Assembly (NCBI GenBank): GCA_944327245.1
Contig: CALVHD010000004.1
Coordinates: 1-64,000 of the forward strand
DNA length: 64,000 bases
Direction of reading: 5' to 3'
Origin: Candidatus Gastranaerophilales bacterium
GTDB lineage: Bacteria; Cyanobacteriota; Vampirovibrionia; Gastranaerophilales; Gastranaerophilaceae
The notes below the pieces were generated by a model, which saw only the letters and a list, made by a program, of their open reading frames with translations, did not search any database and was not told the DNA's origin. A program made the translations under genes and the position numbers. Below are positions 1-12,004 of this stretch, piece after piece; within the stretch, counting starts at the first letter, position 1, and every line of letters begins with the position of its first letter.

Positions 1-125
1 TTTGGTTCTATTTCGTCACCTAATTCACTAATTAGTGAATTTCTTAATTCTTTTTCTTTTTTCTTTTTCTTTTCATCTTTGTATAAAATTTCTGCTGCAT
101 TTTTAAAAATGTTTTGATTTGACAA
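1..125 (-). CDS. 5' end of an unidentified protein (runs off the window)
   Basis: Read on the minus strand from a TTG start at 125, the frame stays open to the window edge. The first ~41 residues begin MSNQNIFKNAAEILYKDEKK and are rich in Lys and Glu. A purine-rich AAAGGA lies 9 nt upstream of the TTG; an upstream ATG in the same stretch hits a stop after two codons, so TTG is the plausible start. An 18-bp palindrome (23-40) falls inside the frame. No family is recognised, and because the gene is cut its real length and function cannot be judged. Confidence 0.45.
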   Translation of the reverse strand, partial: MSNQNIFKNAAEILYKDEKKKKKEKELRNSLISELGDEIEP

Positions 126-643
126 AATATTCTATCCTTTCATTTAATTAACACCCCTGTATTCTATTGTATGGAATTATATTTTGTAAAGAAAAACGCT
201 CATAATTTGTAAGACCTTCCAAATTTGGGCGGATTTTATGGAATAAAATCCTAGGTCGTGGTATAATAAAAAATTTATAAAATGATAAAAATTAAATAAG
301 ATTTTTATATTTCTTTTACTAAAATAATCAAACCAACCGTACACAATAATCAAACCATGTGTTTCTTTACACCTGTGGAAATCGAAGATTTCCGCGTAAC
401 ATCGGTACGGTTTCGCTCTGTCCGCCCGACCTCAACGGTCAGCCGCCACGAGCTCACACACTATGGCTTTTTCATTCTCGTCTAAGTCCAGTCGGACTAA
501 GACTTGAATTTCAAAAGATTCCTCGGAGCAACCGCTTCGCTTATGCCCTCTCAGAAAACTCCTTCGGACTTTTCTTCGGCAGAGTGAGACGCGGCAAATT
601 TTTTGCATTAAATTTATGTTGAATTTTTGGGAATGTTTATTTT
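126..643. other. 518-bp intergenic region with a GC-richer structured island
   Basis: About 126-350 is AT-rich, with a 13-bp direct repeat AATAATCAAACCA (323-335 and 345-357). From about 360 to 600 the composition changes sharply to roughly half GC, unlike anything else in the window. This part contains perfect small hairpins: GGAAATC-GAA-GATTTCC (377-393) and AGTCC-AGTC-GGACT (485-498). An 87-codon frame (359-622) crosses it, but it has no ribosome site, odd composition and no family likeness, so I treat it as non-coding. It could be a dispersed intergenic repeat, a structured RNA or a remnant of foreign DNA. Confidence 0.5.
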
Positions 644-1972
644 TTAATTATTAGCTTCAACATAATAACCATTAAAGCTTCTTTTTGCCATATTTTGCAG
701 GTCTTCAGGAGTAATAGAATTTAAAATTTCTAATTGTGATTTTAGGCTGCCATCAGAATCATTGTATCTGCTTAGTGCATTATTTATTCTGCTGAATCCT
801 GTTGTAAATTTTTCAGCTATAGCATATTCTCTTTCTTTTTTAATTTTTGAAAGTGTGCGCTTATCTATTTTTTCATTAATTAATTTTTCAATTCCCGTAT
901 TAACCATTTGCTTAAATTTATCTAAATTGTCTTGATTATCTTTAGACCATGCGTCAAAACGAATAATGGATGTTGTTTCATCGGTTATATAATTTGCACC
1001 AAGTTGCATTGATTTGTCTTTAAAATCTCTTTGCATAATTTCAATATAATAATCATGTAGAATTAGACCTATTAATTCATTTTTTAATTTTGAACCATTT
1101 TCGAGAATAAAATATTTTGAATAAGATGGTTTATCAACAATTTTACCATTGAAGGTTTTATTTTCTATTAATGGTTTTGTTGGTCTTGTAAAATATTGTT
1201 CATTAAAAGACGTAAATGAGGGCATTTTTGAAAGCGCGCTTAGTATATTACTTTCGCCTGTGAAATTGCTGGCTGCACATATTGCAATATCTGCTTGAGA
1301 ATTTGCAAATAATTCGAAATACAGTTTTTTAATGTCATCAAGTTGTATCTTATCAATATCTTCAATTGTTGTGCTTTTGTTTTTATTGAGTAAATAATCT
1401 TCTGCCATTTGACTGCCATATTTCAGACTATTTAAATCTTCTTTTTCTGCATCTTTTGCGTATTTAAGCGTTGATTCTGATAAAATTGGGTTTGTTATAA
1501 ATTCTACAAAATTTTTAAAACATTGATTTGTGTTTGCTTCATCAGAAGAAAAAATAGCTGCTATGCCGGTTTGTGTACCATAAATTATTGTATAATTATT
1601 GTCCTGATAATTATTATTTGCAGCAACATTCATCATTCTAGCAAGAATTCTTAATTTTAGAGGGTCAGCTTCTATTTTCTTGGGAGTAATTAACATTTTT
1701 CCTTCAATTGTGCCATCATCATATATTGGTATTTTGGCAATTGAAACTTTTAAATTATTTTTTAAGTTATATTTTTTATCCTTAAATCTTGTTGAATTTG
1801 TGCCAATTCGATTAATACAATTGAATGCAGCAGTTTTTCTATAAGTTTCAAAATTTATTAAACCTATTGTTGTTGCGTTATTTATTTTTGTTGGATTTTT
1901 TTCAGGTTTTTTTGTTGCAGTGTTTTTAAATCTAACTGGATAATATGAATTAATTGCATTGATTTTTACCAT
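644..1972 (-). CDS. M16 (insulinase-like) peptidase homologue without a zinc site
   Basis: The 442-residue protein ends with the hallmark tail of M16 peptidase domains (ITPEDLQNMAKRSFNGYY) and has mid-protein segments typical of the family (IDKIQLDDIKKLYFELFANS). I find no HxxEH zinc motif, so it is probably non-catalytic, like the non-catalytic partner in M16 pairs. The N terminus (MVKINAINSYYPVRFKN) resembles the leader seen on neighbours. Its ATG overlaps the stop of the upstream 980-residue gene by 7 nt, implying translational coupling as last gene of the locus. The M16 assignment is fairly sure; what it processes or scaffolds is unknown. Confidence 0.7.
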   Translation of the reverse strand: MVKINAINSYYPVRFKNTATKKPEKNPTKINNATTIGLINFETYRKTAAFNCINRIGTNSTRFKDKKYNLKNNLKVSIAKIPIYDDGTIEGKMLITPKKIEADPLKLRILARMMNVAANNNYQDNNYTIIYGTQTGIAAIFSSDEANTNQCFKNFVEFITNPILSESTLKYAKDAEKEDLNSLKYGSQMAEDYLLNKNKSTTIEDIDKIQLDDIKKLYFELFANSQADIAICAASNFTGESNILSALSKMPSFTSFNEQYFTRPTKPLIENKTFNGKIVDKPSYSKYFILENGSKLKNELIGLILHDYYIEIMQRDFKDKSMQLGANYITDETTSIIRFDAWSKDNQDNLDKFKQMVNTGIEKLINEKIDKRTLSKIKKEREYAIAEKFTTGFSRINNALSRYNDSDGSLKSQLEILNSITPEDLQNMAKRSFNGYYVEANN

Positions 1973-4908
1973 ATTATATGTGCTCCATTATCTTTTAGTT
2001 TTCTTGCCATTCTTTTAAATTCTGCAGTATCTGACGGACTCATATTTTCGGTTATATCTCTTACGCTAAATTGTTTGTTTGGATTTCTTTTGATTTCATC
2101 AATTATATTTTTAAATCTTCCTATTGGGCTTATATTTTTTAATATTTCTATTTGATTATCGTTGTTTTCAGTACCTTTAAATGCTAAATCAAACAGACCT
2201 AGGTTTCCCAACCTTTTCGCTAAACTCATATTTGAAGCAGTATTAGTTAGAGTTGAAATAGTATTTATTGGATTAGCGACTTTTGAAAACAGGTGTGCTA
2301 TAACCGATGGACCAAAATAATATACCGCTCCACCTGCCACAATTGTCGATGCAATTATTATACCAGCTTTTAATAATTTTTTCTTTCTTATATCATTTTT
2401 TTCTTTTTTTGCTAAATCATCAATTTTTGATAAGAAATCTTGAATATCAATTTGTTCATCTTGGGGCAATAATTGAGTTAATTCAGGAACAATTTCTTTA
2501 AAATATTTATCTTTTTGAAGCTCTAAAAGCTTTGTTCTTGTAATTACTCTTAAATATGAATTCATTTCTTTTGTATTTAAATCAATAGAATAAAGTGTTT
2601 TATTTGCTTCAATTAATTGATTTAATTGCGCTTGTTGAATTGATAAAGATTGATTTGCATAATCAGAAAAATTACTTGCAAAATCAGAAATTAATCTACT
2701 TTGAGAATTAATTGATGAATTAATTTCATCTAATTTTGAAACAATTTTATTTCCTTGAATAGTAACGTCTTTAGCGTCTTGATTAATTTGTCTGAATTTA
2801 TCATTCATCATTTTATTAAACATCTCATCACTAAATTCAAGATTAGAGTCAAAAATTAATTGTCTGTTTCCTGCTTCAAAAAATACCAAATCTTCAATAA
2901 CAGATGTTATATCAATATTGGGATTTTTAAGCATTGTTTTAAAACTATCATTATTAGCATATCTTGTAATAAATTCTTTTTGTTCAATTGTTAAGGATGG
3001 GTCATTAAGAATTTTTAATATTGTTTTATCTGAAATGCCATCTTTTTTCTGATTAATTGAGTTTAGAAGTTCAATATTTCTATCTGTTAAATTGTTTAAT
3101 TCAGAATTTAAAAAGTAATTTTTTGCAATATCAACTAAATTTTGCCAATTATATTCTAATTGTTCAATATCTCCTGTTTCTTTTGCTTGCATTATATTTT
3201 GCAAGGTTAATTTTATAGCGTTCTTGCTATCTTTGTTTCCATCAAGCGCTGCTTTTGAAATTAATTGGAAAATATAGCCTATAATTGCAATATCGTCCGA
3301 ATCTTCACTTGATAATATCATTACATCTTTAGCAGGTTCAAAAATGTGCTCTTTAGCATTTAATGACACTTTTTCTTTTTCTTTTGCAAGTAGTTCTATT
3401 GTTGATAACACCCTATCTTCAATTTGAGCAAGGCTGTTTGGGTTTATTTTATGTGATATAACGTCAAAAAATAGCTTGCTATCTTGTTGTTGAACTAAAA
3501 TTGCTTTTTGTTCATCTGATATTGTATCATCATTTTCAATAATATCTTTATATGCTTTTCTTGCCAGTTCTATAGTTTTATTTTCTTTTTGCAATATATC
3601 TAAGCTTTTTGAAATTAGTTTAGCTGTTTTTGTCTTATCTTGCAAAACTTCTTCAAACCAAATCGCTTTAAGTCTTTCATTTCCTTGATTTACAATTTCA
3701 TCTTTTGAAATTTCAAGCCAAAAATCAACAAGTTTTTTTCCTTTAACCGATATTTTTCTTAATTTTTCAACATCGAAATTATCAGCATTTTGAATAAAAT
3801 CAGCGTTTGAAGATATTATTTGTGATAATTCATCTTTTGGATTTTCATTAAATTGTGTTTCAGCACAATTTTCTTCAATTTCACTTAAAACATCAGGATT
3901 TATATTTTTAAAATCAGGAGTTTCAATTAAACCATTTTGTATTAGCCATTTTCTTGATTCAAAAATTCTTGAGATAATTCTTGGGGAAACATCTTTTTTG
4001 CTTGAGGCAATTTTTTCATTTAATACTTGATAAAAACTGCTATTATTTTGATTTTGCCAGTCAAATATTGCTCTATTAACAATTGAATTAATTTTATCAT
4101 CGCTAAAACCGCCTGAGATTTTGTTAGGAGCAAAATGTTGCGCTGTTTGATTTAATTCATCTTCTGTTAAGGGCTCAATTTTTCTTGAATATTTGCTATT
4201 ATTAATAGCAAATTCAATTAATTTTTTAGTATCTTCTATTGAGCTGATTTTAACATCTATAGCTCCTCCAAAACCTTTTCTTTGTAGTAATTCTGGGCTT
4301 ATTGCTTTTGGGTTATCGGTTTGAAGTATAAAAGTTGCTCCATATGCATTTTGCATATTATCAACAGGTTCTTTAGCACAATTATCAAGCCAGGGCTTCA
4401 TCATTGCAATATTTTTATAATTAATTTTTAAATCTGAAAGAAGTAAATCAGAATTTTTTACATAAATTATTGTTCTTTGTCCATTGTTTAGATAATTTTC
4501 TCTGGAATTTTTTAATAAGGTTAGTGTATTTGTTCTGAAGTTATCGCTATCTGTTTCCAATTCTATAATTCTTGAATTAGTTCTTTTTCCTACTCTATTA
4601 AGCAACTCGGCACTTTTTTTATCATCTTCGCTATATAGTAATATAAAAGATGGAATATCTTTATTTTCTTGTAAAGTTAATATTTCTGCTAATTTATCTT
4701 CTTGGGGTTTTGTTGTAGTTTCTCTAAAATTCGTGAAATGTATTTCATTTCCTTTAAAAGCAATTAAATTATTTGAATAGAAATTTAGCGGATTTATTCT
4801 ATTATTCAATTTATTGTTTTGTATGGATGGTTGAGCACTTGTTTGCTGATTATTTTTATATTTAATTTTTTTATAAAAATAATTATTAAGATTTAAATCT
4901 ACTTTCAT
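1966..4908 (-). CDS. Giant protein with a degenerate AAA domain and one C-terminal membrane segment
   Basis: This 980-residue protein starts MKVDLNLNNY and reaches the leader motif LIAFKG near residue 50. Residues ~85-300 align along their length with the AAA domain of the ATPase encoded at 6565-7890: IPSFILLY matches VPNSILLY, and PWLDNCAKEPVDNMQNAYG matches SWLDNCAKLPTDNLQNAYA. The Walker A loop is destroyed: GPIGTGKT becomes SEDDKKSA, with the Lys replaced by Ser99. A long helical middle follows, then a hydrophobic segment at ~845-875 and a second LAFKG-like motif in the tail. It is probably a membrane-anchored pseudo-ATPase partner or scaffold. That role is inference; homology to the neighbour is seen directly. 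Confidence 0.7.
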   Translation of the reverse strand: MKVDLNLNNYFYKKIKYKNNQQTSAQPSIQNNKLNNRINPLNFYSNNLIAFKGNEIHFTNFRETTTKPQEDKLAEILTLQENKDIPSFILLYSEDDKKSAELLNRVGKRTNSRIIELETDSDNFRTNTLTLLKNSRENYLNNGQRTIIYVKNSDLLLSDLKINYKNIAMMKPWLDNCAKEPVDNMQNAYGATFILQTDNPKAISPELLQRKGFGGAIDVKISSIEDTKKLIEFAINNSKYSRKIEPLTEDELNQTAQHFAPNKISGGFSDDKINSIVNRAIFDWQNQNNSSFYQVLNEKIASSKKDVSPRIISRIFESRKWLIQNGLIETPDFKNINPDVLSEIEENCAETQFNENPKDELSQIISSNADFIQNADNFDVEKLRKISVKGKKLVDFWLEISKDEIVNQGNERLKAIWFEEVLQDKTKTAKLISKSLDILQKENKTIELARKAYKDIIENDDTISDEQKAILVQQQDSKLFFDVISHKINPNSLAQIEDRVLSTIELLAKEKEKVSLNAKEHIFEPAKDVMILSSEDSDDIAIIGYIFQLISKAALDGNKDSKNAIKLTLQNIMQAKETGDIEQLEYNWQNLVDIAKNYFLNSELNNLTDRNIELLNSINQKKDGISDKTILKILNDPSLTIEQKEFITRYANNDSFKTMLKNPNIDITSVIEDLVFFEAGNRQLIFDSNLEFSDEMFNKMMNDKFRQINQDAKDVTIQGNKIVSKLDEINSSINSQSRLISDFASNFSDYANQSLSIQQAQLNQLIEANKTLYSIDLNTKEMNSYLRVITRTKLLELQKDKYFKEIVPELTQLLPQDEQIDIQDFLSKIDDLAKKEKNDIRKKKLLKAGIIIASTIVAGGAVYYFGPSVIAHLFSKVANPINTISTLTNTASNMSLAKRLGNLGLFDLAFKGTENNDNQIEILKNISPIGRFKNIIDEIKRNPNKQFSVRDITENMSPSDTAEFKRMARKLKDNGAHIIW

Positions 4909-4926
4909 TTTTCTCTCCTTATATCG

Positions 4927-5751
4927 TTATTGATTTTTTAATTTATCCAGTGTTTCTTGAGCTATTTTTCTAACACTTTCGCTTTTATGGTTTAATAATC
5001 TTCTTATTGGTTTTAAAATAATTTCTTTATCTTTAGGATCATCATTTTGAAGTTGAGCTAATTTTTGTATTGTTTTTAATACTTCAATAAAAGTTTCATC
5101 TTCTTTTATTTCTATTGTCTCTCTTCTAATTGGACCAATTATATCGAAGACATCTTTATCTGTGCCACATTTTTGATAAATTTTTAGAGTTTCTCTAATG
5201 ACGCTTTCATCTTCGCTTAACATCATAGTTGAAATATCATCAATATCACCTATTCCATATTTTTCAATTTCTTTTAGTGCTTTTAGCTGTAGTTTTGTAT
5301 CTGGAGTAGAGTTTATATATTTTATTAGTTCATCAACATATTCATCCCTTTGAGCAGCATTTGGGTTTGAGGTGAATTTTGGAGTTGGGAATATTGATTC
5401 TTGGATTTTGTGTTGAATTTTATTTGGTTGAATGTTAGCCGGTGAAACATCAGAAGGTTCTATTGAAGCCGGTTTTGGTGGAATTTGCTCTTTCTTTTTA
5501 GAAAAATTTGAAATAAAATTCATAATTTGTTTTCTTTTTAAAAAAGCAGTAATTGCAATTAAAATACTTGTTAAAACAGCCCCAATTTTAATAATTTTAT
5601 TTTTATCTATTTTTTTATTTTCACTTTTTTCAAATTTATCTTCTTTTAATGTTTCATTTTGAACAATATTATTAACCTCCACCTCTTTTTTTAAAGGTGT
5701 AGTTGTTTTTGGATTGCGTATATTGTTTATATATTCTTGCATTGTAATCAT
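4927..5751 (-). CDS. Membrane-anchored HEAT-like repeat protein (copy 1)
   Basis: The 274-residue protein has a polar N terminus, one transmembrane helix at ~52-72 (KIIKIGAVLTSILIAITAFL), a proline-rich linker and a 153-residue helical C-terminal domain. That domain has paired-helix repeats of the HEAT/armadillo type (LKALKEIEKYGIGD, VIRETLKIYQKCG, LLNHKSESVRKIAQETLDKL). The domain is identical at DNA level to that of the next gene upstream (5803-6561). The start ATG (MITMQEYINNI) lacks the usual MKI leader, and a later ATG at codon 4 is possible. HEAT domains usually bind proteins, so it may hold a partner at the membrane. Function unknown. Confidence 0.65.
   Translation of the reverse strand: MITMQEYINNIRNPKTTTPLKKEVEVNNIVQNETLKEDKFEKSENKKIDKNKIIKIGAVLTSILIAITAFLKRKQIMNFISNFSKKKEQIPPKPASIEPSDVSPANIQPNKIQHKIQESIFPTPKFTSNPNAAQRDEYVDELIKYINSTPDTKLQLKALKEIEKYGIGDIDDISTMMLSEDESVIRETLKIYQKCGTDKDVFDIIGPIRRETIEIKEDETFIEVLKTIQKLAQLQNDDPKDKEIILKPIRRLLNHKSESVRKIAQETLDKLKNQ
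4938..5396. repeat. 459-bp perfect direct repeat, copy 1
   Basis: Base-by-base reading finds no mismatch between this segment and 5814-6272 (offset 876). It covers the HEAT-like domain codons almost to the stop of the gene. Flanking DNA and the N-terminal halves of the two proteins are unrelated. Confidence 0.95.
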
Positions 5752-5802
5752 AAAAACCTATGTTATCTAAAACATCTGAATGTTAAAAATTGCCTTTAAA
5801 TT

Positions 5803-6561
5803 CTACATTTGACTTAATTTATCCAGTGTTTCTTGAGCTATTTTTCTAACACTTTCGCTTTTATGGTTTAATAATCTTCTTATTGGTTTTAAAATAATTT
5901 CTTTATCTTTAGGATCATCATTTTGAAGTTGAGCTAATTTTTGTATTGTTTTTAATACTTCAATAAAAGTTTCATCTTCTTTTATTTCTATTGTCTCTCT
6001 TCTAATTGGACCAATTATATCGAAGACATCTTTATCTGTGCCACATTTTTGATAAATTTTTAGAGTTTCTCTAATGACGCTTTCATCTTCGCTTAACATC
6101 ATAGTTGAAATATCATCAATATCACCTATTCCATATTTTTCAATTTCTTTTAGTGCTTTTAGCTGTAGTTTTGTATCTGGAGTAGAGTTTATATATTTTA
6201 TTAGTTCATCAACATATTCATCCCTTTGAGCAGCATTTGGGTTTGAGGTGAATTTTGGAGTTGGGAATATTGGCTCTTGGATTATAGAATTGTTTTCTTT
6301 TTGTGTTTCTTCAATGTCTTGATGACTTACGTCAGGTGTATCATCGTTATTTTTGGCTAAACTATGTATTTTTGACAAAAATAAATTAAACAAATCTACA
6401 AGTTGCTTTTTATAGAATGTTGTTGCAATTTGTTTTTTACCATGTTCTTCTTGTTCAGTTGTTTTGCATGATAGTGTCGTGTTTTGTTTATCGGATTTAT
6501 TGTTTTTTTCTTTTTTTTGAAAAACTACATTGTTAAAACCATTTATTTTTTGTATATTCAT
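5803..6561 (-). CDS. HEAT-like repeat protein (copy 2), different N terminus
   Basis: The 252-residue protein has the same 153-residue helical repeat domain as 4927-5751 but an unrelated N-terminal ~95 residues (MNIQKINGFNNVVFQKKEK), which carry a leader-like VVF motif. No transmembrane helix is apparent, so this may be the version without a membrane anchor. It lies 3 nt downstream of the AAA+ ATPase gene, which makes co-transcription and coupling very likely. The DNA identity of the shared domain, next to dissimilar N termini, points to very recent duplication or gene conversion. Confidence 0.65.
   Translation of the reverse strand: MNIQKINGFNNVVFQKKEKNNKSDKQNTTLSCKTTEQEEHGKKQIATTFYKKQLVDLFNLFLSKIHSLAKNNDDTPDVSHQDIEETQKENNSIIQEPIFPTPKFTSNPNAAQRDEYVDELIKYINSTPDTKLQLKALKEIEKYGIGDIDDISTMMLSEDESVIRETLKIYQKCGTDKDVFDIIGPIRRETIEIKEDETFIEVLKTIQKLAQLQNDDPKDKEIILKPIRRLLNHKSESVRKIAQETLDKLSQM
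5814..6272. repeat. 459-bp perfect direct repeat, copy 2
   Basis: Partner of 4938-5396. Identity starts a few codons before the stop codon and ends abruptly at the domain border, where the sequences become ATTGATTC versus ATTGGCTC. Confidence 0.95.
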
Positions 6562-6564
6562 TTT

Positions 6565-7890
6565 TTAGTCCTCATATAGTTCTTCTAACTGTTGTCTAAA
6601 TTCTTGTAAACGTTCGGGTTTAATATTTCTTTTTGCTTTATCTATTCTATCGTTTAAATATTCTTCAAAAGTCTTTTTGTTATCAATATCTTTATCGAAA
6701 TCTTCACAAGCTAATTGAATAATTTTTTTAATTTTATCGTTGCCAAATCCCCCTTTTTCATCGTCCGGGTTCATTTTTTCAGTTATTACATCATAATCAA
6801 TACTATCAGGGTCAATCATATCTCCATTTTTATCAAATTTTTGAATATAGAATCTTATTATTGCTTCAATATTACCTTCTGACGCTGGTTCAAGAGAAAT
6901 TAATTTTTTAATTTTTTCTTCTCTGGGTAATATTTCATCTGATATTTCAAGAGGGTGATTTGTTGTAAAGAAAAATGTGGTTGCATAAGCATTTTGAAGA
7001 TTATCAGTTGGGAGTTTAGCGCAATTATCAAGCCATGATTTCATTTTTGCTATATTTTCGCGATTCATTTTTGTATTTTCAAGATGATTTTCGATTTCGT
7101 TAAGTACAATTATGGTTCTTCTTCCTTCGTTTAAATATCTTTCTCTCGCTTCTTTTAATTTTTTATATACCTCTTGAGAAAAATTTTCAGGGTCAGGATT
7201 CATTTCAACTAATTCGCAATTTGCCTCATTTGCAACGGCGCGAACAAAAGTTGTTTTCCCTGTTCCAATAGGACCATAAAGAAGTATGCTGTTTGGTACA
7301 TCTGCTTCCATACCTGCTTTTTCCATAGCGATTTGTTCTGTAAAAATGCTTCTTATGATTTGTTTTTCGGCATCGTAACCTGCAATTGATTCATCAATAT
7401 TACCGCTATCATAAATTCTAAATGCTTCTGTTAATCTTGCTGCCTTTTCCATTTTTGAAACTTTTTCAGATCTTTGGGCAAGTTCAGCTGCTAATCTATC
7501 ATTTTGTTCGCTTTTTAAAATATTTTGACTTTGTTGTTGAGATAATGTAACTAAATTTTTAATTATTGCATTTGCCGCTATTTCTTCTTTTTCTAAGGTT
7601 TTAGCATACATTTGTTTTAATTCTTTAGGTGCATCTGTAAAATGTTTTTTCCAAAATGACATTCCTTTAACGGCTTTTTCATATTGATCGTCTAATTCTT
7701 TTTTTCTTTTATCTTTATCCCAATTTAGCGCCCAATCAATTGTAGTTTGGGGAGTGGTTGGCAGTTCAATTGTTTTTCTGGCTTTAAAAGCTACATTGTC
7801 ATAGGTATAGTTTTTAATTGTCTTTGTTGCTGTGTTTTTGTTTTTTGAATAATGTCTAACAGGTGTGTAGGCAATTTGATTGATTTTCAT
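6565..7890 (-). CDS. AAA+ ATPase with N-terminal leader
   Basis: The 441-residue protein starts MKINQIAYTPVRHY and reaches the leader motif NVAFKA at ~32-37. A coiled helical region (60-160) precedes an AAA+ module. Walker A is GPIGTGKT (206-213). Walker B is TIIVLNE (259-265), with Asn264 where Asp is usual but the catalytic Glu265 kept. A sensor-1-like FFFTTNHP follows, with a C-terminal lid helix after GGFGNDKI. It is probably an active remodelling ATPase. It is the first gene of a five-gene minus-strand locus whose fourth member carries a dead copy of this domain. RBS AAAGGA lies just before the ATG. The substrate is unknown. Confidence 0.8.
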   Translation of the reverse strand: MKINQIAYTPVRHYSKNKNTATKTIKNYTYDNVAFKARKTIELPTTPQTTIDWALNWDKDKRKKELDDQYEKAVKGMSFWKKHFTDAPKELKQMYAKTLEKEEIAANAIIKNLVTLSQQQSQNILKSEQNDRLAAELAQRSEKVSKMEKAARLTEAFRIYDSGNIDESIAGYDAEKQIIRSIFTEQIAMEKAGMEADVPNSILLYGPIGTGKTTFVRAVANEANCELVEMNPDPENFSQEVYKKLKEARERYLNEGRRTIIVLNEIENHLENTKMNRENIAKMKSWLDNCAKLPTDNLQNAYATTFFFTTNHPLEISDEILPREEKIKKLISLEPASEGNIEAIIRFYIQKFDKNGDMIDPDSIDYDVITEKMNPDDEKGGFGNDKIKKIIQLACEDFDKDIDNKKTFEEYLNDRIDKAKRNIKPERLQEFRQQLEELYED

Positions 7891-8223
7891 ATTTTTCCTT
7901 TCTTTATATTAAAAAAGTCGACAATTTTAATGTCGACTTTTGTTTGTAATTTTAAAGGCTGAAAAATAAGCGGAATTATTAACCACTTTTGCTATAAGTA
8001 TAAAATAGTAATTCTTTTTATATTTCATATAGCCTCAAAAGTTTTATTATTAATACAATACATATAAAAAAATTTTTTTGTTAGGTATGTAGTGAAAATG
8101 TAATAAATTTTTACAAAGTTTTTAACTAAAATTATAAAAAGTAAATTTCTTATAATATTGTTGGCAATTTATTTTTTTATTTGTTTTGTATAGTTAAGAC
8201 CATTAATTAAAAAAGGATTATTT
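7891..8223. other. Divergent intergenic region (333 bp)
   Basis: This stretch separates the minus-strand AAA+ locus from the plus-strand 204-codon gene. It is very AT-rich and holds the hairpin at 7913-7941. A perfect TATAAT (8151-8156) could serve plus-strand transcription, but I see no convincing -35 at the right distance. Nothing else stands out. Confidence 0.5.
7913..7941 (-). promoter_or_regulatory. Terminator-like hairpin in the leader of the AAA+ operon
   Basis: AAAAGTCGACA (7913-7923) pairs perfectly with TGTCGACTTTT (7931-7941). On the minus strand the stem is followed at once by six Ts. It lies 22 nt upstream of the ATPase start codon and beyond its ribosome site, so a transcript starting upstream would meet an intrinsic-terminator shape before the first gene. 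It could be an attenuator, an insulator against upstream read-through, or a protein-binding palindrome. Confidence 0.5.
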
Positions 8224-8838
8224 ATGAAAGTTCAAATAAATCAGCTGTCTTTGCAAAAAAATAATATGCAAACAAAAAAAACTTCCGATATAAAACCTCT
8301 TGAAACCAAAAGCAATTTTGCATTTTGTGCAAATGAAGCAATATCAAATTATAATAGAGTTTTTGCTAATTACAAAAGTAATCCTGATAAGTGGGCTTAT
8401 GATTTTTTAAATGATGAAAGATTGCAAGATGAAAGTCTAAAATCTGTTATAGATTTTAATACATGCATGCAATTTTGTTCAAAAAAACCTGTATTTTTGT
8501 CTTTTGATCCCTCACATTTTATTGATAATGTTGTTTCATTGATAAATGATGACTCTTTAAAAGATTCTAGCGGTAATCCTCTTTTGGATTTAAGCACATA
8601 TCTTGATGCTTGCAAACGTTATCCTGCGTTGTTATGCGTAGCTAAAAAAGTATTAATCCCAAATCTTAAAGAAACAGCTTTTTTATTAAAAGATGAAATG
8701 TTATCTAAAAATCCTTCAGTTCAAACAGATGAAAAAGATATATATGCTAAAGCGCTAAAATCACCTTTATTGTTTTCTAAAGATAAATATGAATATATGC
8801 TTGCAAAAAAGTACTTCCTTATGGAATTTTTAATATAG
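8224..8838 (+). CDS. Unidentified leader-type protein, apparently interrupted by a frameshift
   Basis: The zero-frame product is 204 residues, starting MKVQINQLSLQKNN and reaching a leader-like NFAFCA near residue 34. The rest is helical and polar, with no recognised family. The frame passes A-AAA-AAG (8805-8811, codons gcA AAA AAG) and stops nine codons later at 8838. Shifting one base back at that heptamer opens a further 66 sense codons to 9011, so the natural product is probably ~262 residues. RBS AAAGGA lies just upstream of the ATG. Either this is programmed -1 frameshifting, a damaged gene, or a one-base homopolymer error. Confidence 0.6.
   Translation: MKVQINQLSLQKNNMQTKKTSDIKPLETKSNFAFCANEAISNYNRVFANYKSNPDKWAYDFLNDERLQDESLKSVIDFNTCMQFCSKKPVFLSFDPSHFIDNVVSLINDDSLKDSSGNPLLDLSTYLDACKRYPALLCVAKKVLIPNLKETAFLLKDEMLSKNPSVQTDEKDIYAKALKSPLLFSKDKYEYMLAKKYFLMEFLI
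8805..8811 (+). promoter_or_regulatory. Candidate -1 frameshift heptamer A-AAA-AAG
   Basis: The heptamer sits exactly in the X-XXY-YYZ phase of the zero frame. A-AAA-AAG is the well-known slippery sequence of E. coli dnaX. No strong upstream Shine-Dalgarno is obvious, and downstream there is only a tiny TTCC-TTAT-GGAA hairpin. Confidence 0.45.
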
Positions 8839-9011
8839 AGGGTATAGATGTTAAAAGGGTGCTTGAACTGTATTTAAAACGAAATCAAGGCGACATATAT
8901 TCATTTGATATACCAAAAGATGAACTTAGTGAAGAATTTATAGAATTTTCTGAGCTTTTTGCAAAAAGAGTGACGGGCGAAAAAAATATTTTTGATATTA
9001 ATGTCAGATAA
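8811..9011 (+). other. -1 frame continuation of the 8224 gene
   Basis: From GTA at 8811 the -1 frame reads VLPYGIFNIEGIDVKRVLEL and continues to TAA at 9009-9011: 66 sense codons with ordinary lineage codon use and no start codon at its beginning. It looks like the genuine C terminus of the preceding gene rather than a separate gene. Confidence 0.65.
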
Positions 9012-9050
9012 TGTTATAAACATTTAAAAAATAAAAAATTTTCATATTTT

Positions 9051-9908
9051 TTATTTTAAAAAATGCGTCAATCCTTCAAGAATTCCTTTTGCACCATTTG
9101 ATAAGGAAAAATATATATTTTCATTTTCTTGACTTAATTTTTTGCAAGTTTTTGTGAGGTTGGGTTTTGAATTGTTTAAACAAATAAATTTGGAGCCAAG
9201 TTTTGATAGTTGTGCCATCGAAATATCATTATTGTCATTACCTGCCATAAGAATTTCTTCTTGAGGAATGTTTAATTTATTTTTTAGGTATTGTATAGCC
9301 GTTGATTTATTATAAGGAGCTATAAATAAGACTTGATTATCCGTGTTTTCTCCTTTAAAACCGCATAGGGACGTAATTTTTTCTTTTGAAAGAGCTAAAA
9401 GAATATTTTTTCTTAATTGATTTATATCGATTTGCTTAGGTACTTTATATTTTAAAGTCATAGCTTCAGATTTTATTTCTTCAAGATTTTTATTTATTGA
9501 ATTAATTATTTGATTAACATATGCTTTATCAAAATTTGTGCTTTGTTTTATACGCAATAAATATTCAAAATCTTTGTATAGTTTATTATCTATATTTATA
9601 TAAATATTACCGCCGTTGTTTGCTATTAAAAAATCAGGCAATTTCAGATTAATGCCGTTAGATAAAAGTTCATTTTGAAGCAAATAAAATTCATCTAAGC
9701 TGCGTCCTGTAGCATATATTATTTTTGCGTTTCTTTTTTTTGAAATATCTAAAATTTGGTTAATTTGTTCAAAATTTCCGTTAGCTAAGGTACCATCTAA
9801 ATCATATATAAACATTGATTTTTCTTCAGGTTTTTTAATTCCGTTAAAGGAAATTTTATTATTGTATAAGTTTTTTATGTATGTTTTTTCTATATTTTTA
9901 ATTTTCAT
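9051..9908 (-). CDS. HAD-superfamily phosphatase (sucrose-phosphatase/Cof type) with N-terminal leader
   Basis: After a leader (MKIKNIEKTYIKNL... KISFNG, residues 1-23) the HAD motifs follow in order: DLDGT near residue 35 with the nucleophile Asp, ATGRS, and the C-terminal acidic pair GNDNND. The cap region is of the IIB type, as in sucrose-6-phosphate phosphatases and Cof enzymes. It probably hydrolyses a sugar phosphate. No sucrose-phosphate synthase is nearby, so the substrate stays open. A leader on an otherwise ordinary cytosolic-type enzyme is odd. Confidence 0.8.
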   Translation of the reverse strand: MKIKNIEKTYIKNLYNNKISFNGIKKPEEKSMFIYDLDGTLANGNFEQINQILDISKKRNAKIIYATGRSLDEFYLLQNELLSNGINLKLPDFLIANNGGNIYINIDNKLYKDFEYLLRIKQSTNFDKAYVNQIINSINKNLEEIKSEAMTLKYKVPKQIDINQLRKNILLALSKEKITSLCGFKGENTDNQVLFIAPYNKSTAIQYLKNKLNIPQEEILMAGNDNNDISMAQLSKLGSKFICLNNSKPNLTKTCKKLSQENENIYFSLSNGAKGILEGLTHFLK

Positions 9909-10037
9909 AATTATTGAATAATAATATAATACTGTTTCTATATAAAAACAGGTAAAAATAAAAAATGAACAAAAATTAATAAAATATCAGTTTGATTTTA
10001 AATCATTGTATAATAAAGTAACAGACAAAGGAAAAAT

Positions 10038-11141
10038 ATGAAAACATTAAGTCTTGTAATACCTGTATATAATGAACAAGCTACTTTAAAACAAATTGTA
10101 GATAATGTTTTAAAGATTCAAACTGAAGAAATTAAATTGGAAATAATTATAGTTGATGATTGTTCGTCAGATAACAGTTATGACACAGCGTTAAGAATTG
10201 CCCAAGAAAATCCTTGTGTCAGGGTATTTAGGCAAGATAAAAATCAAGGAAAAGGTGCCGCCTTGCGAAAGGGATTTTCTTTTGCAACAGGTGATTATAT
10301 CGGCATACAAGATGCGGATATGGAATATAATCCCAAAGATTATTTAAAAATGATTAAGCCTTTAATTGAAAATAAGGCAGATGTTGTATACGGCAGCAGA
10401 TATTTAAAACAAGATACAAGGCGAGTTTTATATTTTTGGCATACATTTATGAATAAGGCTTTAACCCTTTTAACTAATATGTATACAAATTTAGACATCA
10501 CCGATATGGAAACATGTTATAAATTATTTAAAAAAGAAGTTATAAATTCAATTATTCCGAAATTGAAAGAAAATCGTTTTGGTTTTGAACCTGAAATTAC
10601 CGTATATATTTCAAAGGGGAAATTTAGGGTTTATGAATGTGCAATAACATATAATCCAAGAACATATGAAGAAGGCAAAAAAATCTGCGCAAAAGACGGA
10701 TTAAGGGCTTTGTATTGCATATTGCACTACGGGGCTCATAGCGCGCCAATTCCAATGCAATTTATTCTTTACATATTAATTGGCGGAATAAGTGCTATAG
10801 CGAATATCTTGATATTTTTAATATTAATGAACCTAAATATTAGTTTGGTTTATAGTATCGGAATAGCTTTTATTTTTTCTGCTGTAATAAATTACTTATT
10901 ATGTATCGTTTTTCTGTTTAGGCATAAAGCACACTGGACATCTTTTGGTGAAATTCTGTCTTATATATTAACGGTTGCAATTATGGGTTCTCTTGATTAT
11001 GGCATTACTTATGGACTATTATTTTTTGGAATGAGCAACTTTTGGGCAAAAGCATTGTCCAGTTTGATAGGTGTGGTTGGAAATTTTTTGTTAAGAAAGT
11101 ATTTTGTATTTTTAGAAACAAATAAAAACAATATTTTTTAA
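10038..11141 (+). CDS. GT2 glycosyltransferase fused to a GtrA-like membrane domain
   Basis: Residues 1-~225 form a family-2 glycosyltransferase of the dolichol-phosphate-mannose-synthase type: SLVIPVYNE, the nucleotide-binding DD (40-41) and the metal-binding DAD (92-94), then the TDMETCYK region. Residues ~230-360 contain four hydrophobic helices and fit the GtrA family, which helps move lipid-linked sugars across membranes. Such fusions usually make or flip polyprenyl-phosphate sugars. The ATG follows AAAGGAAAAAT. It stands alone, with a minus-strand gene starting 5 bp beyond its stop. Confidence 0.88.
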   Translation: MKTLSLVIPVYNEQATLKQIVDNVLKIQTEEIKLEIIIVDDCSSDNSYDTALRIAQENPCVRVFRQDKNQGKGAALRKGFSFATGDYIGIQDADMEYNPKDYLKMIKPLIENKADVVYGSRYLKQDTRRVLYFWHTFMNKALTLLTNMYTNLDITDMETCYKLFKKEVINSIIPKLKENRFGFEPEITVYISKGKFRVYECAITYNPRTYEEGKKICAKDGLRALYCILHYGAHSAPIPMQFILYILIGGISAIANILIFLILMNLNISLVYSIGIAFIFSAVINYLLCIVFLFRHKAHWTSFGEILSYILTVAIMGSLDYGITYGLLFFGMSNFWAKALSSLIGVVGNFLLRKYFVFLETNKNNIF

Positions 11142-11146
11142 AATTA

Positions 11147-12004
11147 TTATTTTAATTTATTGTATATAGAATCATCTACAGCTTCTAGCCAAACATTTTC
11201 GGTGTCAACTCCGTCTATTTCAATGGCTAAATGTGAAAACCATGAATCAAAAGCTGCGCCGTGCCAGTGTTTTACGTTGGCGGGAATGTGGATTATTGTT
11301 CCTTCTTTAATTTCAATCGGCTCTTTTCCCCATTCTTGATAATAACCTCTTCCGCCTACACCAATCAGCATTTGACCGCCATTAGATTTTGCTTTGTGAA
11401 TATGCCAATTATTTCTGCATTTTGGCTCGAAAGTTACATTGTAAATTTTTACTTGTTTATCTGAAATAGGCGCCAAATAGCTTTGTCCTATGAAATATTT
11501 TTTATAAGCATTATTAGGTTCTCCTATCGGAAACATTATTGTTTTTTGGTATTTTTCTTTTTCAGATAATTTATTATCTGTTGAATTATCATCGTCTGTC
11601 CATACTGTTTTTGCCAAATTAAAAACTGCCCAAGCTTTTGGCCAGCCTGCATAGAATGCATTGTGGGTGATTATTGCCGCTATTTCTTTTTTTGTAACAC
11701 CGTTATTTTTGGCATTTTGCAGATGGTATACAAGGGAATTATCCGTAATTCCCATAGACATTAATGAAACAACCGTTATTATGCTTTTTGTTTTTAGGTC
11801 AATATCTTGATTGTTCCAGTTTTCACCAAATAATACATCGTCGTTAAAATGAGCAAATTCCGGCGCAAAAGAGCCAAGTTGAGTTCTGCCTGCGGTTTGT
11901 GTAACTTTTTTCATATTTACCTCTTTTTTCTGGGCTAAACACGGATTTAATATAAGCAATGTGAAAATTACGGGAAGAATTGATTTTGTTATTTGTTTTT
12001 TCAC
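11147..12004 (-). CDS. Exported carboxymuconolactone decarboxylase-like/cupin fusion
   Basis: A signal peptide (ILPVIFTLLILNPCLAQ) leads into a carboxymuconolactone-decarboxylase-type helical domain (~30-140, with AAIITHNAFYAGWPKAW) and a C-terminal cupin (~175-275). The cupin shows NNWHIHKAKSNG, then NVKHWHG, giving the expected metal-binding histidines. The domain pair is common among small exported or cytosolic enzymes of unknown substrate. No redox CxxC is visible in the first domain, so a peroxidase role like AhpD is unlikely. Confidence 0.85.
   Translation of the reverse strand: MKKQITKSILPVIFTLLILNPCLAQKKEVNMKKVTQTAGRTQLGSFAPEFAHFNDDVLFGENWNNQDIDLKTKSIITVVSLMSMGITDNSLVYHLQNAKNNGVTKKEIAAIITHNAFYAGWPKAWAVFNLAKTVWTDDDNSTDNKLSEKEKYQKTIMFPIGEPNNAYKKYFIGQSYLAPISDKQVKIYNVTFEPKCRNNWHIHKAKSNGGQMLIGVGGRGYYQEWGKEPIEIKEGTIIHIPANVKHWHGAAFDSWFSHLAIEIDGVDTENVWLEAVDDSIYNKLK

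Follow-up and report, generated by a model that had tools for sequence, protein, structure and literature searches.

What does a bacterial operon do that encodes an intact AAA ATPase together with a large membrane protein carrying the same domain in dead form, two HEAT-like proteins with a common domain, and a zinc-less M16-like protein? This arrangement lies at the start of a contig from the 1.7-Mb genome of a Candidatus Gastranaerophilales bacterium (G000; other G-numbers denote genomes of relatives and L-numbers denote loci), in a stretch of 64,000 nucleotides that we call the window. We consider it about an even bet (probability roughly 0.5) that the operon encodes a lineage-restricted, membrane-tethered heteromeric AAA remodeler whose stalk subunit is a pseudo-ATPase and whose HEAT adaptor exists in soluble and anchored forms. 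The minus-strand block is as tight as a preliminary description of this DNA had it: all five open reading frames are present between 644 and 7890, the first four separated by 3, 51, and 18 bp in turn and the last two, for the 980-aa and M16-like proteins, overlapping by 7 bp. The features of the operon are the following:

7913-7941, minus strand: hairpin followed by a U-tract in the operon 5' leader, just before the Shine-Dalgarno sequence
6565-7890, minus strand: active classical AAA ATPase, 441 aa (Pfam AAA, motif alignment, PDB profile matches)
5803-6561, minus strand: HEAT-B, 252 aa, with an FxG-type leader (NVVFQKKE), no transmembrane segment, and a C-terminal HEAT domain
5814-6272, minus strand: 459-bp repeat, HEAT-B copy, identical to the HEAT-A copy
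4927-5751, minus strand: HEAT-A, 274 aa, without a leader, with a predicted transmembrane helix at approximately residues 53-71 and the C-terminal HEAT domain of HEAT-B
4938-5396, minus strand: 459-bp repeat, HEAT-A copy
1966-4908, minus strand: 980-aa protein with a leader (NLIAFKG), pseudo-AAA domain, helical stalk, coiled coil, transmembrane helix, and exchangeable C-terminal module
3970-4674, minus strand: pseudo-AAA domain, residues 79-313 of the 980-aa protein (alignment, AlphaFold2, dN/dS)
2290-2379, minus strand: predicted transmembrane segment of the 980-aa protein, approximately residues 844-873 (sequence and tail alignment)
644-1972, minus strand: M16-like protein, 442 aa, corresponding to the C-terminal non-catalytic half of ~940-aa M16 proteins

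The hairpin is terminator-like and directly precedes the first Shine-Dalgarno sequence of the operon. In the operon leaders of relatives, the stem sequence has changed and the pairing is kept (GUCGAC, UCGCCAC, UGUCGUCA), which suggests that the operon is controlled by attenuation; an Rfam search of positions 1-12000 returned no match. Position 8224-9050 holds a 204-aa leader-bearing gene (NFAFCANE) that is apparently frameshifted, with coding that seems to continue downstream in a neighboring frame. At 340-610, a G+C-rich segment in this A+T-rich genome has 26 partial matches genome-wide, several of them close to contig ends, and resembles an interspersed repeat, a short stretch of which also adjoins a remnant locus in G057.

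The 441-aa protein matches the Pfam AAA family (PF00004) at 2e-14 (54.6 bits; cut-off 21.2), and in the PDB the profile of its family retrieves p97, AFG2, and Vps4. It begins with a leader (MKINQIAY...NVAFKA), contains an intact Walker A motif (GPIGTGKT, ~7252-7275), and keeps the catalytic glutamate of Walker B (IIVLNEIE), in which the first aspartate is replaced by asparagine. A profile search pairs it with the N-terminal part of the 980-aa protein (35% identity, E 1.4e-37); there, SEDDKKSA occupies the Walker A position and IIYVKNSD the Walker B position (KN for DE), and the LDNCAK and QNAY segments also align. Both the intact motif and its replacement had thus been described correctly, and, based on the loss of catalytic residues from both Walker motifs, the 980-aa protein is a predicted pseudo-ATPase. 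AlphaFold2 (AF2) models its residues 80-330 with the strand and helix order of an AAA domain plus lid, at pLDDT mostly 75-90; the underlying alignment of 14 rows included three active AAA domains and may favor an AAA model, and the paralogue alignment is significant independently of it. The predicted fold being that of an AAA domain, the alternative that this region is something else does not stand. Foldseek matches of the pseudo-AAA model include Vps4, FtsH, the Ycf2-FtsHi motor (8xku/8xkv), and p97, and VIA-align superposes it on Vps4 (4d82) with Z 16.7 and rmsd 4.6 over 241 residues, a comparison that covers essentially the AAA part of the protein (residues 44-329).

Beyond this domain, the 980-aa protein is predicted to form a long helical stalk, a coiled coil (low confidence), a transmembrane helix, and a short C-terminal module; the transmembrane segment and coiled coil are conserved across the alignment of the tail family. 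The stalk and tail match no Pfam family and have no significant sequence match in the PDB, and NCBIfam contains no model for the 980-aa, M16-like, or HEAT-A protein. After the transmembrane segment, at ~2160-2180 of the window, the gene encodes a second FxG-like element (LAFKG), with counterparts in the stalk proteins of relatives (ISFKS, IPFGH, ISFGH). Collections of plasmid, phage, and IMG/VR contigs contain no relatives of the 980-aa protein, and an origin from a mobile element or virus was ruled out on this basis.

HEAT-A and HEAT-B have 459 identical bases near their 3' ends, a point absent from the preliminary description, and unrelated N-termini. Their assignment as HEAT-like proteins is probable from the predicted structure and not reached in Pfam, where the HEAT_2 scores (18.8 and 17.9 bits) fall below the cut-off of 27.7. 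The model of the shared domain (HEAT-A residues 121-273; pLDDT mostly 72-94) consists of confident helical hairpins and is a predicted alpha-solenoid, for which the best Foldseek matches are designed helical repeats, armadillo, and TOG/HEAT folds, none at E <= 0.001. The DNA encoding this domain is 98.5-100% identical within most loci versus about 65-78% between loci. Within-locus identity is 100% in G000, 99.6% in G187, 99.8% in G279 and G118, 98.5-100% in G064, 89.8% in G082, and, for two of the three copies each, 98.9% in G181 and 100% in G072, although short-read assembly may smooth differences between copies, so that values of 100% are perhaps slightly overstated. Domains at the same paralogue position in different genomes are only 72.9-73.4% (G000 versus G187) and 70-74% (G072 versus G181) identical in DNA, and only 33-36% identical in amino acids between G000 and G279, whereas the paralogue-specific N-termini are conserved between genomes at 46-57% aa (G000/G187, G072/G181). 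Because the N-termini are orthologous across genomes and the C-terminal domains group by genome, repeated homogenization is needed, and from these comparisons we regard the C-terminal domains of HEAT-A and HEAT-B as being under concerted evolution. An independent recent duplication in each genome was rejected on the orthology of the N-termini. Contigs of G206, G264, G275, G246, and G233 end in or near the HEAT repeat, as expected since repeats break short-read assembly, and in G254 the HEAT-A N-terminus and the spacer are missing, the outcome expected of a deletion between the repeats. Homogenization is not universal, since the HEAT-like copies of G065 are clearly diverged (45% aa). It is unusual in bacteria to find such a constraint, concerted evolution of one domain between putative adaptors that differ in their N-termini.

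Synteny in related genomes bears out the block. G187, of the same genus, has the identical order AAA - HEAT-B - HEAT-A - pseudoAAA/stalk - M16-like; in G233, also of this genus, the order is split by a break inside the HEAT repeat, with the ATPase and HEAT-B at one contig end and the end of a HEAT gene, pseudoAAA, and M16-like gene on a second contig. G279 has the ATPase, HEAT-B, HEAT-A, an AAA partner, and a frameshifted stalk, and the M16 gene is missing from the stretch examined. In G133 (another genus), stalk and M16-like genes lie beside several AAA genes, and G049 has the roles reversed: its AAA fused to the stalk is intact, and the free AAA beside it is dead. Loci in G005, G043, G064, G118, and G248 encode an intact AAA, a ~200-aa membrane protein, a dead AAA of ~310 aa, and a ~1130-aa protein with the stalk at its C-terminus. 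In G072, G082, and G181 and at a second G064 locus, both AAAs are intact and accompanied by two or three HEAT copies, which shows that a related operon can do without a dead partner. A second operon class (L088, L089, L161, L047, L162) encodes a TPR-like ~725-aa protein, a ~790-aa protein, two intact AAAs, two or three HEAT copies that are mosaic in N- versus C-terminal identity, and a ~300-aa leader protein.

Within the genomes sampled, the stalk family is confined to this taxonomic family: it occurs in 14 of 383 genomes of the family, a few of these being weak partial matches, and, among the 289 (class) and 194 (phylum) genomes, in none from another family. A collection of 84,980 species yielded nine confirmed stalk-family loci, all of this order, and the named relatives of the 980-aa protein are all metagenome-assembled genomes of Candidatus Gastranaerophilales or the related Candidatus Galligastranaerophilus. 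A literature search on AAA ATPases or N-terminal motifs in Gastranaerophilales found nothing. Recognizable parts of the system occur in seven of the sampled genomes of the genus, a patchiness that marks it as dispensable. Decayed remnants include G254 (another genus), a frameshifted copy with an ATPase 88% identical in amino acids and one HEAT gene; G057, with the ATPase only; and G243, with HEAT-A and two tandem M16-like genes without an ATPase. G233 is 76-80% identical to G000 in amino acids through the ATPase and stalk, versus 19-25% in the M16-like gene and the final ~40 stalk-protein residues, which resemble those of G279 rather than G000; these two segments were swapped together. Near-identical AAA loci in different genera (L043 in g7, L044 in g2), beside which the start of an adjacent 121-aa gene is apparently also identical, indicate recent transfer.

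Such turnover is compatible with a conflict module, for example against phages, in which a sensor or effector AAA machine is gained, diversified, and lost: presence is patchy, chromosomal neighbors differ among G000, G187, G233, G279, and G254, copies have decayed in three genomes (one of them, G254, close in sequence yet in another genus), genera g2 and g7 have near-identical AAA loci, and the M16/C-terminal module was exchanged in G233. Yet the block has no effector domain (nuclease, NADase, or protease), its PADLOC matches are only to generic AAA (IetA, 2e-6) and a HEAT model (0.008), phage, plasmid, and IMG/VR collections hold no relatives of the 980-aa protein, and variation is greatest in an accessory gene rather than in the ATPase. 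On balance, we consider a conflict module unlikely.

That accessory gene had been described as a zinc-less M16 homologue, and this holds with a refinement. The protein has HMM matches to M16 down to 8e-29, and the HxxEH zinc motif is absent from it and its close relatives; its homology is specifically to the C-terminal non-catalytic half, residues 510-923 of the ~940-aa M16 proteins of the order (hhalign 99.7%, E 2.7e-25), which carry HxxEH in their N-terminal halves. Judged from these alignments, it is a predicted pseudopeptidase, a stand-alone dead C-terminal half of the larger M16 proteins. Other M16 genes occur elsewhere in G000, and NCBIfam names a full-length M16 relative as YfmH/YfmF-like with a score below cut-off. 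The gene is absent from several relatives (G279, G049, and the G005 type) and is the least constant part of the system. Since it lacks the zinc motif, is missing from several relatives, and was exchanged between lineages in G233, proteolysis is not a core property; of the membrane-linked remodeling or processing system originally proposed, processing is not borne out, and membrane linkage is supported by the transmembrane helices predicted for HEAT-A and for the C-terminal part of the 980-aa protein.

The leaders raise another reading, in which the AAA complex and the M16-like protein sort or process proteins of the lineage by recognizing their short N-terminal FxG leaders. M16 proteins in general act on unfolded peptides that resemble presequences. 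The element is present in three of the five operon proteins (IAFKG, VAFKA, VVFQK) and in similar form in the M16-like protein (VRFKN), and a second copy follows the transmembrane segment of the 980-aa protein. Across the window and its relatives, the pattern [VILSTA][STAV]F[KGTQ][GAS] is ~5 times more common at residues 9-80 than elsewhere (12.8 versus 2.6 per 10,000), although this count was drawn from loci chosen for the operon system. Leaders are, however, widespread in genomes without the operon, which therefore cannot be a general leader receptor, and the M16-like protein lacks the zinc ligands, so that we regard leader-directed sorting or processing as rather improbable.

An active and an inactive AAA in one operon, noted at the outset, is a recurrent arrangement: an intact AAA is paired with one or more degenerate AAAs in ~14 loci. 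On a tree of 60 AAA domains labeled for loss of Walker A, seven changes were counted (bootstrap 5-95% range, 6-7) versus a mean of 16.5 with shuffled labels; some branches are long, so individual placements are unsure, and the well-supported (starred) branches alone force three changes. The dead domains of the window type form a clade nested with the active AAAs that they are paired with (100/96); those of the G005 type are the sister group of their active counterparts (94/84); G049, G041, G073, G011, and G133 make up a third group of dead domains (98/88). One AAA copy thus appears to have been killed several times independently in related operons. Partners in G279 (GGPGSGKT) and G057 (L041) group with the window-type dead clade and have an intact Walker A motif without the Walker B glutamate, which suggests that loss of hydrolysis preceded loss of nucleotide binding, the G279 partner being an apparent intermediate. 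Repeated loss with the pair kept constitutes a natural experiment on the purpose of a non-hydrolyzing subunit.

In the comparison of G000 with G233, the active ATPase has a dN/dS of 0.17, the dead AAA domain 0.18, and the stalk 0.19; in that of G000 with G187, the AAA parts have values of 0.21 (active) and 0.27 (dead). The dead domain is maintained by purifying selection, under constraint like that on the active copy. That it is simply a dying duplicate is very improbable: both Walker motifs are lost and some relatives are visibly decayed, but its dN/dS in the G233 comparison equals that of the active ATPase, dead partners arose repeatedly, and reading frames of 975-980 aa are intact in three species.

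The membrane-tethered remodeler that we favor builds on the domain identities, motif losses, selection, synteny, recurrent pairing, and concerted evolution observed in sequences or models, and a remodeling activity would follow from its AAA class (Vps4/p97/FtsH-like). We infer complex formation, membrane topology, and the adaptor role as follows. The 441-aa ATPase would be the source of ATP-driven force, and the pseudo-AAA domain would occupy the non-hydrolyzing position or positions in the same or a stacked ring. The stalk and C-terminal transmembrane helix of the 980-aa protein may anchor this motor to the membrane. The HEAT domain would serve as an adaptor, its soluble, leader-bearing form and its membrane-anchored form docking the same partner at both sites, and gene conversion would hold the two forms identical. 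The M16-like protein may be a peptide-binding, non-catalytic accessory. More tentatively, we propose a previously undescribed Gastranaerophilales remodeling machine in which an AAA copy repeatedly became a pseudo-ATPase stalk or partner, soluble and membrane forms share a gene-converted HEAT adaptor, and proteins with FxG leaders may be the substrates. Neither NCBIfam nor PADLOC has a model describing the five-gene system; because the whole group is without database annotation, a complete machine may hide behind the label "hypothetical protein".

Among known systems, the HEAT pair resembles TLR1/TLR6, tandem paralogues whose divergence is limited by gene conversion (PMC2077338). Those are mammalian receptors, unrelated in sequence. 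The M16-like protein aligns with the C-terminal half of the YfmF/YfmH pair and of the ~940-aa M16 proteins, and differs from them as a lone half without HxxEH in an AAA operon. IetAS has a generic AAA likeness through IetA, and the subtilisin-like protease IetS is missing from the block. Pex1/Pex6 is a heterohexameric classical AAA motor in transport at a membrane (PMC9265785, PMC4490564). It is a type II double-ring AAA, whereas the operon proteins have a single AAA each, one of them dead. Vps4 is the closest fold to the pseudo-AAA domain, and the intact AAA domain of G049 matches CdvC at 9e-13. Vps4 and CdvC form homohexamers with an MIT domain, and we know of no dead paralogue in these systems.

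Magnesium chelatase is similar in composition: its operon encodes an active AAA+ protein, BchI, beside a partner, BchD, in which a degenerate AAA+ domain is fused to other domains. It differs in that BchI and BchD are soluble, belong to a different AAA+ clade, have a von Willebrand domain (in BchD), and are without HEAT or M16 partners. The chloroplast Ycf2-FtsHi/FtsH12 import motor is a membrane-bound heteromeric AAA complex that combines active with inactive subunits and includes a very large partner (PMC8042743). Its mixture of active and inactive AAAs is like that of the operon, and its structures are among the Foldseek matches of the pseudo-AAA model. The FtsHi proteins, however, are pseudo-proteases of the FtsH family, whereas the operon protein lost its ATP site, and nothing in the import motor corresponds to the HEAT and M16-like partners. 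The 441-aa protein stops just past the AAA lid with no M41 match in Pfam, nor does the 980-aa tail, matching no Pfam family, have one; having neither an M41 domain nor a subtilase, the operon stands outside both FtsH and IetAS. The pairing of an active with an inactive AAA is itself of an already known kind, as in Ycf2-FtsHi/FtsH12 and BchI/BchD.
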